This document shows, in pieces, positions 117 to 62,039 of a stretch of 64,000 nucleotides of DNA. The position numbers and the translations under genes are program-made. Position 1 is the stretch's first letter, and each line of letters opens with the position of its first letter. The notes under the pieces were generated by a model. That model made no database searches. It was not told where the DNA came from and saw nothing but the letters and a program-made list of their open reading frames with translations. The DNA is taken from positions 372,001 through 436,000 of the forward strand of contig WHUZ01000009.1 in the NCBI GenBank assembly GCA_015179045.1, written 5' to 3'. The DNA is from Kalaharituber pfeilii (taxonomy: Eukaryota > Ascomycota > Pezizomycetes > Pezizales > Pezizaceae).

Positions 117-149
117 ATCCAAACCTAGTCTCGTAACCAGATCCAAACC
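117..149 (+). mobile_element. 15-bp micro-element with 9-bp target duplication
   Basis: The 15-mer TAGTCTCGTAACCAG (126-140) is flanked by perfect 9-bp direct repeats ATCCAAACC at 117-125 and 141-149. The same 15-mer, in reverse orientation, sits at 22675-22689 between a different 9-bp repeat, and a 19-bp form sits at 62012-62030. Flanking direct repeats that differ from locus to locus while the insert is constant is the signature of a mobile insertion. I know of no named element of this size. Confidence 0.7.
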
Positions 150-21985: not shown

Positions 21986-22665
21986 TTGAATTTATTGTGG
22001 GAGTCCAACGGTCTTTCTTTGTGAAGGTTGTATTTTGCAAGGCGAAGGTAAGTGCATGCTGCTGAAAGTGCTCAGCATACTACTTGTAGGTGTACTGTAC
22101 AGGATTGAATGGGATGTATCTTAGTCTTTCTATGTTGAGTCGATGCGTGGTTTGTCGATGTCCTGCGCTGTTTGTTGTTGTTGAATGAATCGAATCTCTA
22201 ATATTTGATCAGCTCGGGACTGCGACTCATATCCACTTATATCCAAATATTCACCCATAGGTTGCTTTATGAAAAAAAGGAAATTTGGGGTGTGGGAGGA
22301 TCCGACCGTAGTTGTGTATACTATCATAGTGGCTTCTACGGGGAAGCTTGAGAACTACTGTAGTGACAAAGTCAAGCATCCTAGTGCGCTCAGTGCTTTT
22401 TCTTCTAACATCCCCCTTGCCTGCTCTACACAGCCACAGCAGAGCTAGTCTTGTAACTAGATCTCCTAACTGCCTACGGAATACTGTAGATGCCTCGTGC
22501 AAGCCCCTCCCGGGGGTGGTGCAATCAGAACATTATGTAAGTGAGAATAGTACTATAGACTTCATAGTTGGGGCATAGTCGTTGTAGCCTGGTTGTAATC
22601 CGACTAATTTCATTGATAGTGAACTAATCGGAAATCGATATTTTTAACGCAGTGCTGTAAAGAAT

Positions 22666-22698
22666 GGGCTTCGTCTGGTTACGAGACTAGGGCTTCGT
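22666..22698 (-). mobile_element. 15-bp micro-element with 9-bp target duplication
   Basis: CTGGTTACGAGACTA (22675-22689), the exact reverse complement of the 15-mer at 126-140, is flanked by perfect 9-bp repeats GGGCTTCGT at 22666-22674 and 22690-22698. This is an independent insertion of the same unit at an unrelated target. Confidence 0.7.
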
Positions 22699-24994: not shown

Positions 24995-25991
24995 TTGCCC
25001 GCTCAATAATGGCTGCTGGGGAGTGATGTTCTGGTAGAAGAGAGGGTATTTGTTAATTTTATAGCTGCAGGGCAATGGGGAGGAAATTGTGATTAGTTAC
25101 CGTGGGTTGGTGATATGGCAGTAAAGCAGTGCATGACTTGATGGAGCTGAAGAGGAGGATAAGGTGGAGTCAAACGGCTGAGTTAAGGATAATGCAAGGC
25201 AGGTGCAGGAAATGGAGAATGGAATATGCCGAACCATGCAGAGACTAAGTACAATGTTTCCATGTTCCTTACTTGGGACAGTTGATTCTTTTTTCAGCAT
25301 TTGACTGACGCCCTGCTCTCCATCGAGAACACACATTTTTTTTCCGTTGGCCAGGGGCTGTCTTTCCTTGATGTATTCTTGCGTGCTTCATCCACGAATC
25401 ATAACATGACTACATCGGGTGATAGTTGTAATCGGAAATGCCTTTCCCGTCCTTTTCTTAGAATTTCCACTAACACCTTTGTATATACCTCTAAAGGTGA
25501 TTAAGTGAGCAAGCCCATGAACCTATTGTGCATCTGTTTAGTTGACGCCACATTTTTGGTTTTGCTTGTTAGTGTTGAGATTTGTGGTTTTTCTGGGCAT
25601 TTTCGTTCCCAGGGCTGTCATGTTTTCATTAACCTTTTCTTTTAACCAGTATTCAGGGAGCATGCACGTGGGAATTCTTGTAATTATGTCCTAGTTATAT
25701 TAATAAATCTGTTTAAGGAAGCCTACTGCATTGTTGTGTTCAGCATCAGCAGCGGTTAGAGTCAAGACTCTTCAGGGCTTAAGTGCCCAGGGCAACGAGG
25801 TAAACTTTGGTGTTGGAGAACCGGCGAACATACATGTAACTTCTACTTGAGTACTCCAGCTGAAGCCTTGCCTACGCTGGTGTCGCTGAGGGCGGGATGT
25901 AGCCTGAGTTGAGTGGTTGTATGTAATCTGGTGCCAGGGGAATTTCGTGCTGGGCCCACGTGCCCAACGTATGTAAATAGTAGTCAGCGTC

Positions 25992-26006
25992 CTGGTTACG
26001 AGACTA
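25992..26006 (-). repeat. Micro-element copy without visible target duplication
   Basis: CTGGTTACGAGACTA is identical to the 15-mer at 22675-22689. The flanks (GTCAGCGTC and TGTAGGTTG) do not match each other, so the duplication has decayed or the copy moved by another route. Confidence 0.5.
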
Positions 26007-30400: not shown

Positions 30401-32994
30401 GAGGCCTGTGGAGTGCGCCCATAATGTCGTACTAGGATAGAATTTCCTTCAGTAGGTAGAGGAGTGCTTTGGCTCATTTCTCGCATTTATTGGATGTAAA
30501 TATCTTGAAAATTGAGTGTTGTGGGAATTTTACAGTGTTAAGGGTCAGTTTTCCGGATTTCGGAGGGGGAAATTTTCCGGACTTGGCAATAATAAACACA
30601 TTGTTGCTAAGGCAACGTATTTTTTTCCAAATCCTGAAAAAAGTTCGGGGTTTGTAAAACCTCTCAAGTAGATATCGGAATATTTGATGGCTTCCCTAAA
30701 TCTTGCGATTGATATTGGTGTGAGGGTCGCATTTGGGAGCGGGGGGATGCCCCGCAGTTTGATTGAGTCCGGTAAATATCCAGACTAGGTAAATATATCT
30801 TGAGTGGATTTGTTTGGATCGTCAATCCAAGTCAAAGATGAAGAAACACCATGACATGGATTATTTCACTGATGATCAATCTTGGCTGGAACTATATAGA
30901 TGTCATCAGAGCAAGGCCCTGTTTGGTTGCAGTAGGTCGTATCAGATAGTTTAGACCTTAGCATCGGTATGAATGGCTAAGACGTAAGAGGTGCAATTGG
31001 AACTGGGGAAGTTTGTTTGCTCCAATTTGACTACGTACCTACAGATATCTATAATCGAGAAGCTCCGGCTAATTTCTTCTAAATCCTGTCATCAGTAGAT
31101 GTGCTAACAAACCAACTTGGAAAAATGCAGGGCGATCTTGTTTAGGGTCTCCAAGTCGGATGTCGTTATTACCCGATAGGAAATACGGCATGCCCATTGC
31201 TTCCCATGACAACTACAGTAGCTACCAACGTACAACGTCTCTGGGCGCAAATAATCATTTACATACACTTTCCCCGGCCGGAAGAATTTCATCCCTGCCA
31301 GTTCATGTATATAGCCCCGGCCCCGAACGCCATACGTACGACCGTTGAAGATGAACGTGGGTCTGGGCCGGTCCTAGCATAAGGGAACCTGGTACAGTAT
31401 GTTGGTGTGTGGGGTTATCTTTCCATACTACCTTGACCTTGCAGCCCCCTGAAACCACTCATGGCAGTTGAAAAGTATGCATATAGTTTTACGTTGCCAA
31501 TAATAATTTCGGAACTACTGCTCGCCTAAGAGAACAGCATGTCTGGAATATACTCAGGAAACTTCTGGCTTCGCCGCAGTGTGAGAAGAAACCTCCAAAA
31601 GGATTTTGATAAAATTGCTAAGGCCGCAGACCAGAATATATCAGGTGCAAGAATTACCTCGTTTAATTATGATCTGTTGACCACAGTTTGCAGTAGCATA
31701 GGCACGTATTGTCCTCTACTAGTAGTAGCCACGACAATTTGCAGCGGGGGTCCTTCCGGCCTCTCGAGAGGACCCAGATAGTCGTTAATAGTACTCCACT
31801 TATGAAGCTTGATGCAATTTGGACCTGGTGACCATATTGTCACCGCCCTCGCGTACACAATAGCCATACCCCGGGCCGCCAGTATTTATCGATGCAGTGT
31901 ACAATAGCACTAGACGAGTTTAATACCTGCATGGAGGGCGCTGGACGTACGAAGGTGTCGATGTCTGTGTTGCTTAACGTCGTATGCTACAATTTGTTTC
32001 TTGTGCAGCTAGTTCCGGCCAGCCCTATTGCGAATAGGGCCAGCCCACTGACTCCTAAAATATTTGTTGTCATCGATATATTGATTGTTGCACTCCACAT
32101 GTATAATAAACCTGAAGACAGTTGCGTTGAGTATGCCCAAGCAATTCTTATGCCGCTGTCAACGTGACACAACTCTAGAGGCTCAGTCACACGAGCTGCT
32201 GCCAAAGCCGTGTTGCCAAGACAACGCCAAGTCATGCTTTCTTCCCTGCCGACCCCACACGGCGCACACAAGCTTCCTGAATTCCAGCCTCCAATCAAAA
32301 CATCACTCGGGGTTTGCTCTTCCTTGTCAAGCTCATTTGACACCACCATATTGAGGATAGAGCGTTCGTTTAGAGCAGCATGCAGCTTCGGCCCCCCAGT
32401 TTTTCCTCTGCTTCAACAAGGGCTCTGCTTCTGCTCCCTAGGTATGTACTGATCTTTTATGCAGATATCAGGTGCTTTTTGGAAATGAAACGTGACACTT
32501 TACAGACAATGCGAACTCAGCTTTATCATTATATGGTATTCCGTAGGTTCTCACATTAGCGAGATGCAGGTCTCATTCAGCACCCTAAGCTCACTTTTCA
32601 GCTTGGGTTAATTGAGGTCTTCAACTTTGAGGAATAGGGACCGAACGTCGATCAGCGCCCGCTTGGAGATGTTTTGCTTCATGCTTAGGATGATCACGAG
32701 CATTCCCGGTTGCTTGTTTTTGAAATTCTATAAAAACTGGGATGATTTACTTTTTCTTGAGTGAACGAATGATTTCGTACATGGCTAGCTATTTAGCTCA
32801 TATGTAACTTCATGGATCTGAACTGGAGGAAAAGATGAATGATGCTTGACTCAACTTGCCTGGACCCCAGTTATTTACCATATCTACCTTATCTATCCCC
32901 AGTGATCTGGAATTCCACCACATCACTTCGCCACCATCATCTATTTCATCATTTTGCAACTTTGGCTTTGGCATACGAATAGCAACCAATCACA

Positions 32995-36326: not shown

Positions 36327-36372
36327 TAGTCTGGTTACGGAAAGTGATTAACCTAGTCTGGTTACGAGACTA
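36327..36372 (-). repeat. Tandem pair of micro-element-like units
   Basis: TAGTCTGGTTACGG (36327-36340) and TAGTCTGGTTACGAGACTA (36354-36372, the full 19-bp unit) are separated by 13 bp. The flanks of the second copy, TGATTAACC and TCAGTAACA, match at 6 of 9 positions, possibly an eroded duplication. Confidence 0.5.
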
Positions 36373-41501: not shown

Positions 41502-41534
41502 GAGACTACCCTGGTTACGAGACTAGAGGCTTCC
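41502..41534 (-). mobile_element. 15-bp micro-element with eroded 9-bp duplication
   Basis: CTGGTTACGAGACTA (41511-41525) is identical to the insert at 22675-22689. The flanks GAGACTACC (41502-41510) and GAGGCTTCC (41526-41534) match at 7 of 9 positions at exactly the spacing of the perfect cases. Confidence 0.5.
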
Positions 41535-43144: not shown

Positions 43145-44399
43145 CTGATCGCGAGGTCTGCAGAAACAGAGGGTACCAGATGATCTTCAAAATTACGGGG
43201 TCTCATGATGGGCCTATGTGTAAGCGCATGCAACACCTCACCCCTGTCACGAGTAGGCTAAGCCCAATGGGGCCAGCATTTGTGCAGCATTGCAGCATTA
43301 ATGGGGCAAGTGTTGGGCACTGCCGAATGGGGGCAAATATTGGGGCAAAATGAGGGCAAACGGACTCTCAAAGAAAAGGAATGTAAAGGGGCGGAAAGCC
43401 ACTTCTGGATTTTGTATCCCAAAGATTACCGAGCGAGCGAATAAACTCTTTTCTCTCCAGAATATCACACTACGGCCTACGTACTCAGGTAGCATGGGTA
43501 ATCCATGCCTTACTTCGGCCAATGCACTGAGCCTATAAGGACACGGCGGATCCAGATCTGAAGCTACAACTCAGCTTGCGCTCGGAATTGGTTCAGCAGT
43601 TTTCTCCATTGGAGCAGCGGACAGGTAGGTACCGGTTGGAGGGAACCCTAAGCTTTTGACGCCTAACTGAAGCTGGAAACGAGGGCAATCACAATTGTGG
43701 TAAACGTACAGTAATACAACACAGCTCTTCTTGGTAGGTGACACAGAACGTTTAGAAGCGTCTTGTTGGTTAGCCTTTGAACACAGGTAATCGCACAATA
43801 TATGCACATGATATATAAATCTTAATCTCTATCCACAGTCATCAAGCAAACAGTACTTGGAAGCACTTGTCGACCGTAACCAACGTGAACATCATATCAA
43901 TCTGCTAATGATGAGACGTACTTGTAGCATACATAGTCTCACAATTTGAGAATCTGACTTCCCTCAAGTATGTAGCCATCGGGTTATGCAGAGGTGCTGC
44001 TGGCTTCTATCAATACTACAAGTATGCACAATATCAGTTTGCACTAGTAAGCACTAGTACATACATACAGGTAACCTACATAACATACTTGGAGAAGCAC
44101 TTACCAGAAGGGCGGCAGTACGTACTTCATATGCACTGACCAGGCTACATATGCACCCGAACTTAGGCCTTACCACAACCTAAACTGGAAATCTTCAAAG
44201 CACGACCTTTTCTCAGCAAAGCTTCCGCGGAGGGTAATAGCTGTGCAAGGAATTAGAGAAGAGCAGCTCCACCGCTGCTGCCGCTCGAGTATAAATCCCC
44301 CTCTCCCCTCTCGTTTCCGCTTCTCCTCCATGCTCGCGGAACCATCACTCCTGCATCAACCTCTCTTCCTCCATCCCCAAGATTCTAGCACTTGATATC
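43145..44399. other. Gene-less stretch ending in a promoter-like region
   Basis: No supported gene. TATAAAT at about 44291 followed by a long CT-rich tract (44299-44385) looks like a fungal core promoter pointing right. Confidence 0.35.
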
Positions 44400-62002: not shown

Positions 62003-62039
62003 TCACTTGCCTAGTCTCGTAACCAGACTATCACTTGCC
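62003..62039 (+). mobile_element. 19-bp micro-element with 9-bp target duplication
   Basis: TAGTCTCGTAACCAGACTA (62012-62030) lies between perfect 9-bp repeats TCACTTGCC at 62003-62011 and 62031-62039. The insert has 6-bp inverted ends TAGTCT/AGACTA around CGTAACC and contains the 15-mer of the other loci. It is the longest clean form of the unit in this window. Confidence 0.75.

Follow-up and report, generated by a model that had tools for sequence, protein, structure and literature searches.

Short inserts of constant sequence between 9-bp direct repeats that differ from site to site are real in the genome of the desert truffle Kalaharituber pfeilii (Pezizales). They are probably the excision footprints of a cut-and-paste DNA transposon, which is probably an AcademH element. 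On each strand, its transposase would make one cut at the 3' end of the transposon and a second about 15 nt inward of the 5' end; we place the probability of this reading at roughly 0.7. The 15-nt stagger is read from the footprints and is the novel and testable part of the proposal.

Inserts in the Window and in the Genome

The window, the whole 64,000-nucleotide stretch of DNA that we analyzed (C350:372001–436000), was known from a preliminary description to contain four copies of a 15- to 19-bp sequence, and each of them is borne out. The 15-mer TAGTCTCGTAACCAG, which equals the first 15 bases of a transposon end, lies on the plus strand at positions 126–140 between two copies of ATCCAAACC (117–125 and 141–149) that match without mismatch at 15-bp spacing. 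An inverted copy is found on the minus strand at 22675–22689 between perfect repeats reading GGGCTTCGT on the plus strand (22666–22674 and 22690–22698). The 19-mer TAGTCTCGTAACCAGACTA, identified in our listing of end joins as a left end joined to a right end at AG, occupies 62012–62030 of the plus strand between perfect copies of TCACTTGCC (62003–62011 and 62031–62039), and the 15-mer at 41511–41525 (minus strand) has a decayed flanking repeat that matches at 7 of 9 positions. Two further exact 15-mers, absent from that description, are located on the minus strand at 36358–36372, within a 19-bp form (36354–36372), and at 25992–26006, within a 26-bp form composed of TAGTCTCGTAACCAG and GACGCTGACTA (25981–26006); the flanks of both forms match at only 6 of 9 positions. 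No flanking repeat was found around a diverged relative, TAGTCTTGTAACTAG, at 22446–22460 on the plus strand. With up to three mismatches allowed, the window contains 11 matches to the 15-mer, some of them overlapping on opposite strands, compared with 1.13 expected.

Other short inserts between perfect 9-bp repeats were seen in the window at 44137–44147 and 32026–32037 (TGACCAGGCTA; TATTGCGAATAG). Pairs of 9-bp repeats around a short insert number 26 in the window, some being simple repeats, and 7 to 9 in three Markov sequences.

The genome-wide search for the 15-mer that the preliminary description had proposed, with a test of the flanks, gave repeats well above chance. In the 78.03-Mb assembly (360 contigs), we found 777 exact copies of the 15-mer and 48 of the 19-mer, and none of their reversed controls. 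Insert lengths were computed for the first 100 listed of the 777 places, all on contigs C1–C24, counting as a repeat any 9-bp direct duplicate within 400 bp, or less where the stretch was shorter, that had no more than 1 mismatch. At 48 of the 100 places, such a repeat surrounded an insert of exactly 14, 15, 19, or 25 bp. The commonest length was 15 bp (n = 25), followed by 25 bp (n = 12), 19 bp (n = 7, one of them not the ACTA form), and 14 bp (n = 4), and none of the 100 places had an insert of 16 bp. As the chance of a repeat at one given length is 0.00136 per random window position, about 0.5 cases per 100 are expected at the four lengths. When the flanks of the same places were shifted by 20, 30, and 40 bp, no repeat was observed at any of the four lengths. 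Within the full 400 bp, 64 places showed a repeat with at most 1 mismatch, 42 of them perfect, and 36 showed none; because the range of lengths searched is wide, isolated lengths (20, 23, and 60 bp) can be chance. The pattern of transposition recognized earlier, a constant insert between varying 9-bp duplications, is thus upheld by 48 places in 100 against about 0.5 by chance, and by the empty paralogs.

Empty Sites at Paralogous Targets

Where a paralog lacks the insert, the 9-mer is present only once, so that the inserts are true insertions; taken together, the repeats and the empty paralogs establish, at the level of sequence, insertion with a 9-bp duplication. Such empty sites, which had been suggested as a check, were found for inserts in two repeats, in two further pairs of loci, and at one shared target. 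The 15-mer of L129 sits in a repeat of which we scored 40 copies among 128 candidates, a list that includes neither L129's own copy nor the copies left unscored. Each of the 40 aligns across the site with no more than 7 extra bases and therefore lacks the insert. L027 is empty at the position of the 15-mer in L076, and L034 is empty, base by base, at the position of the 25-mer in L081, with other small differences close by. In the repeat holding the 19-mer of L019, the insert is present in four copies, and at least 22 of 42 matches cross the insert point with a difference of at most 1 bp. L194 on C15, a further copy of this repeat, has no 19-mer and has a short duplication of its own instead.

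The shared target, CTCAGGGCC, has six matching places, of which five were read. L128 holds the 15-mer; L125, L192, and L193 are empty; and the paralog at C23:118926–118944 holds TAGTCTCGTAACGAGACTA, a 19-bp sequence in which 12 bases from one end and 9 from the other overlap at AC. Two separate insertions into the same 9 bp are a less likely origin of this pair than two excision outcomes of one insertion. In no case did we find a full element in one paralog opposite a 15-mer in another.

Larger Elements and Their Proteins

The 15-mer is the start of a longer end, TAGTCTCGTAACCAGACGCTGACTAAGC, with 74 copies genome-wide, and the proposed search for larger elements with these ends yielded four of 3.2–10.7 kb as well as miniatures. 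The four lie between convergent ends, each with a perfect 9-bp duplication, and measure 9,616 bp (C296), 3,244 bp (C317), 10,707 bp (C335), and 5,803 bp (C112); the interiors of C296 and C112 were read whole, that of C335 except for about 320 bp, and C317 at its ends only. The outer ends on C112 are 5,881 bp apart, and a 69-bp form with the same 9-mer is present at the right border; the large element is therefore 5,803 bp long. A single element of 5,881 bp was rejected, as the 69-bp form stands between two more copies of that 9-mer.

Two convergent pairs of 15-mers were dropped as full elements. In the 2.6-kb pair on C12, C12:156044 has its own 25-bp insert with 1 mismatch and C12:153478 has no repeat. 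In the 2.1-kb pair on C13, C13:106794 has its own 15-bp insert; the 1-mismatch matches of C13:104705 at 2,083 and 2,107 bp are not flush with the far end at 2,104 and were therefore taken as chance.

Miniature forms of 57–140 bp have the same ends and 9-bp duplications; one of 132 bp lies at C24:686759–686890. Those of 77–140 bp have the two inverted terminal repeats by which a MITE is recognized, and the 15-mer has a single end only. The remnants form a graded series from 15 bp up to full elements. The two ends of L064, of L111, and of the C317 element are one and the same inverted repeat for more than 50 bp.

These observations bear on the earlier view that the 15- to 19-mer is a micro-transposon itself, moved in trans by a transposase. 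Such a unit would account for the constant insert, the differing 9-bp duplications, the 777 copies of the 15-mer, and the empty sites. We nevertheless consider it very improbable, as the 15-mer carries a single transposon end, graded remnants with the same end exist, and two different remnants occupy the target CTCAGGGCC in two paralogs; all three points favor excision. To our knowledge, transposases pair two ends. The related suggestion of a MITE reduced to its fused ends comes close to the truth for the 19-mer, in which two ends are joined.

Of the three interiors read, that of the 9,616-bp element on C296 encodes a DUF6589 protein (PF20231, E = 8e-70) and, on the opposite strand, a helicase in two frames with a match to the RecQ family, as would be expected of an AcademH transposon. 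Its DUF6589 frame has 100% identity, from end to end, to a Kalaharituber pfeilii protein. The 10.7-kb element on C335 still contains part of this helicase gene, with 88% identity across 131 amino acids. On C314, where one end of the element was located, a DUF6589 match in a 993-amino-acid open frame begins 1,461 bp past the same end, the distance on C296 being 1,462 bp. Genome-wide, 34 stretches match DUF6589, 30 of them above the cut-off, and there are none in 14 control genomes. The position of the DUF6589 protein inside an element with these ends and duplications points to it as the putative transposase. The Mutator-like origin considered earlier was rejected: the 9-bp duplications are common to both, but none of ten element frames scanned with domain models matches a MULE model, and the 9.6-kb element carries DUF6589 and the RecQ-like helicase.

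A Pfam scan of four proteins, P0001–P0004, gave DUF6589 and one subthreshold match to CREPT in P0003; P0001 and P0003 are without the N-terminus. DUF6589 was the sole family above the cut-off among the Pfam and NCBIfam matches of these proteins, with no Academ family among them, and the P-element domain models (THAP and P-element transposase) had no match in the scanned frames and proteins, two of the four proteins being without the N-terminus. Protein searches for DUF6589 relatives returned three Kalaharituber proteins and one other relative (P0003), and these four sequences are too few for a better alignment. The fold was not resolved in an AlphaFold2 model of P0002 computed from the four-sequence alignment (mean pLDDT 39.5, pTM 0.40).

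Within the C112 element, L123 contains a fragment of a DDE_3 transposase, probably a nested Tc1/mariner-like element. Within the C335 element, L121 contains long frames that, by eye only, resemble a nested LINE with reverse transcriptase and RNase H, and a minisatellite within the helicase-related frame.

Proposed Excision Model

A DDE transposase must free the 3' ends of the transposon at its border. In the proposed mechanism, each strand would be cut twice, exactly at the transposon 3' end and some 15 nt inward from the 5' end, and both broken flanks would then keep a 15-nt 3' tail, TAGTCTCGTAACCAG. Direct ligation of such a tail to the recessed 5' end across the break would give the 15-mer between two target duplications, in either orientation and with no trimming. 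Such a pair of cuts is in keeping with the commonest product, which has 15 bases from one end and none from the other. The 19-mer would arise if the terminal AG of one tail annealed to the AG in the other. Partial copying from an intact sister copy followed by joining would give the 25-mer, through a 5-bp match of GACTA, and the longer deleted forms.

Joining two 15-nt tails at a match of 2 nt allows 13 products, some of which are reverse complements of each other. The join that uses the 3' terminus of the tail (AG) is the observed 19-mer, with 48 copies in the genome compared with 5 for the AC join, these two being the only joins counted genome-wide. The palindromic blunt join of 15 + 15 has no copies in the genome.

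The short inserts could instead be ordinary internal deletions of miniature elements that arose through replication slippage or microhomology repair and call for no particular cut geometry. The 25-mer and the 19-mer can be read in this way, as deletions between short repeats of the ends (GACTA, 5 bp, and AGAC, 4 bp), and these two forms could be plain microhomology deletions. The commonest form, 15 + 0, has no junction repeat and, in 25 of the 100 places, runs precisely up to the target duplication; this sharp breakpoint counts against internal deletion, since a random deletion would not prefer one breakpoint, and we regard the explanation as unlikely. Even less credence is due to asymmetric ends: a flush border cut at one end, a blunt cut 15 bp into the element at the other, and no 15-nt stagger on both sides. 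Such cuts would likewise yield the 15 + 0 form, but no asymmetry is visible in L064, L111, or the C317 element, where the ends are alike, and neither the AG join of the 19-mer nor the AC join at CTCAGGGCC is predicted.

Of 54 places of the 28-mer end, 26 had a 9-bp repeat within 28–200 bp. In these forms with a long left arm, the right arm measured 0–14 nt in 15 cases (11–14 nt in 8), 15–16 nt in none, and at least 17 nt in 11; 3 of the 15 short arms are without right-end bases, have 1-mismatch repeats, and may be chance, and two elements were counted from both ends. The lengths partly back a tail of at most 15 nt, whereas the 11 of 26 right arms longer than 15 nt count against the 15-nt stagger. 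Remnants shorter than 15 bp are under-counted because our seed demands an intact 15-mer. Ten 12-mers without CAG gave inserts of 14 bp in three cases and of 16, 19, and 11 bp in one each, with repeats of at most 1 mismatch; another was ambiguous (15, 19, or 27 bp) and three were without an insert. Judging from these lengths, the stagger may be 14–15 nt or variable.

A second family of ends, TAGTCTGGTTG, has 1,634 copies genome-wide, with 59 for the reversed control, and 396 of the copies continue with CAC. Among 17 places where CAC does not follow, four have 9-bp repeats around inserts of 12, 12, 13, and 21 bp, and inserts of 11 bp were seen in three further places (family loci L026, L062, L084, L179, L184, L186, and L188). 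The figure of 15 is therefore not universal: this family seems to leave 11–13 bp.

For the more specific statement that AcademH/DUF6589 transposases, like P elements, cut the strands about 15 nt apart, and that ligation of the tails to the opposite flank left some two hundred 15-bp scars of identical sequence (extrapolated to 777 from 25 of 100 places), we see roughly even odds. On this reading, the RecQ helicase encoded by the element would be involved in the repair. If the scars have been read correctly, they provide a testable cleavage model, with the 3' cut at the transposon border and the 5' cut 15 nt further in, and the cut geometry of an enzyme would be readable from a genome alone. DUF6589, a Pfam family without a name, would be tied to excision. 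By the same scaling, the genome would bear around two hundred precise insertions of 24 bp (15 + 9 bp), which could be mistaken for mobile units or random indels in comparisons of genes or strains.

Comparison with Known Systems

AcademH was reportedly defined in Kojima 2020. The elements described here resemble it, in a fungus, in their perfect 9-bp duplications, found around four large and many small elements, and in an element-borne helicase, of the RecQ family in the C296 element and as a fragment in the C335 element. According to an excerpt of PMC10045372, AcademH makes 9- or 10-bp target duplications, a feature linked there to its helicase. The parts of the literature covered by our searches returned nothing on the excision footprint or cut geometry of Academ elements, and the literature searched included no bench study of an AcademH/DUF6589 enzyme; a full-text search found no paper with the 15-mer and none on DUF6589.

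The Drosophila P element leaves 17-nt 3' extensions on cleavage, as stated in an excerpt of PMC7776569. The proposed likeness, as far as that excerpt describes it, lies in a cut at the 3' end combined with one far inside the inverted repeat and in the resulting long 3' single strand, 17 nt in the P element and an inferred 15 nt or so here. The duplications differ, with 8 bp in the P element and 9 bp here, and the elements in our data carry a helicase and have no P-element domain match.

Footprints of MITEs and other transposons (Stowaway/Mariner and mPing) keep the duplications and some end bases in the portion of PMC4561436 consulted. Short nonautonomous forms and retained duplications and end bases are thus common to both, whereas the footprints in that portion are short end sequences only, and here one defined 15-bp remnant recurs genome-wide.

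Additional Short Forms

Tandem doubling of the insert together with its 9-mer was observed in the arrangements 9-15-9-15-9 and 9-19-9-19-9, at L069 5338–5385 (C2:713537 and 713561) and L015/L016 (C68:728557 and 728585). At L102 (C112:2215574–2215660), the 69-bp form beside the large element comes with the same 9-mer three times. Tandem units of insert and 9-mer may reflect either re-insertion at the same target or slippage in repair. Forms of 30–31 bp in L034, L037, L125, and L127 run into an inverted copy of the inner part of the end (starting TTAGTCAGCG) and are either an unexplained joint or a subfamily. Finally, L127 with L191 (C23:118850–119120) has a 12-bp insert, TAGCCTCGAACC, between perfect GTTGCCAAT repeats; it is missing in four paralogs and is probably the remnant of a third related family.
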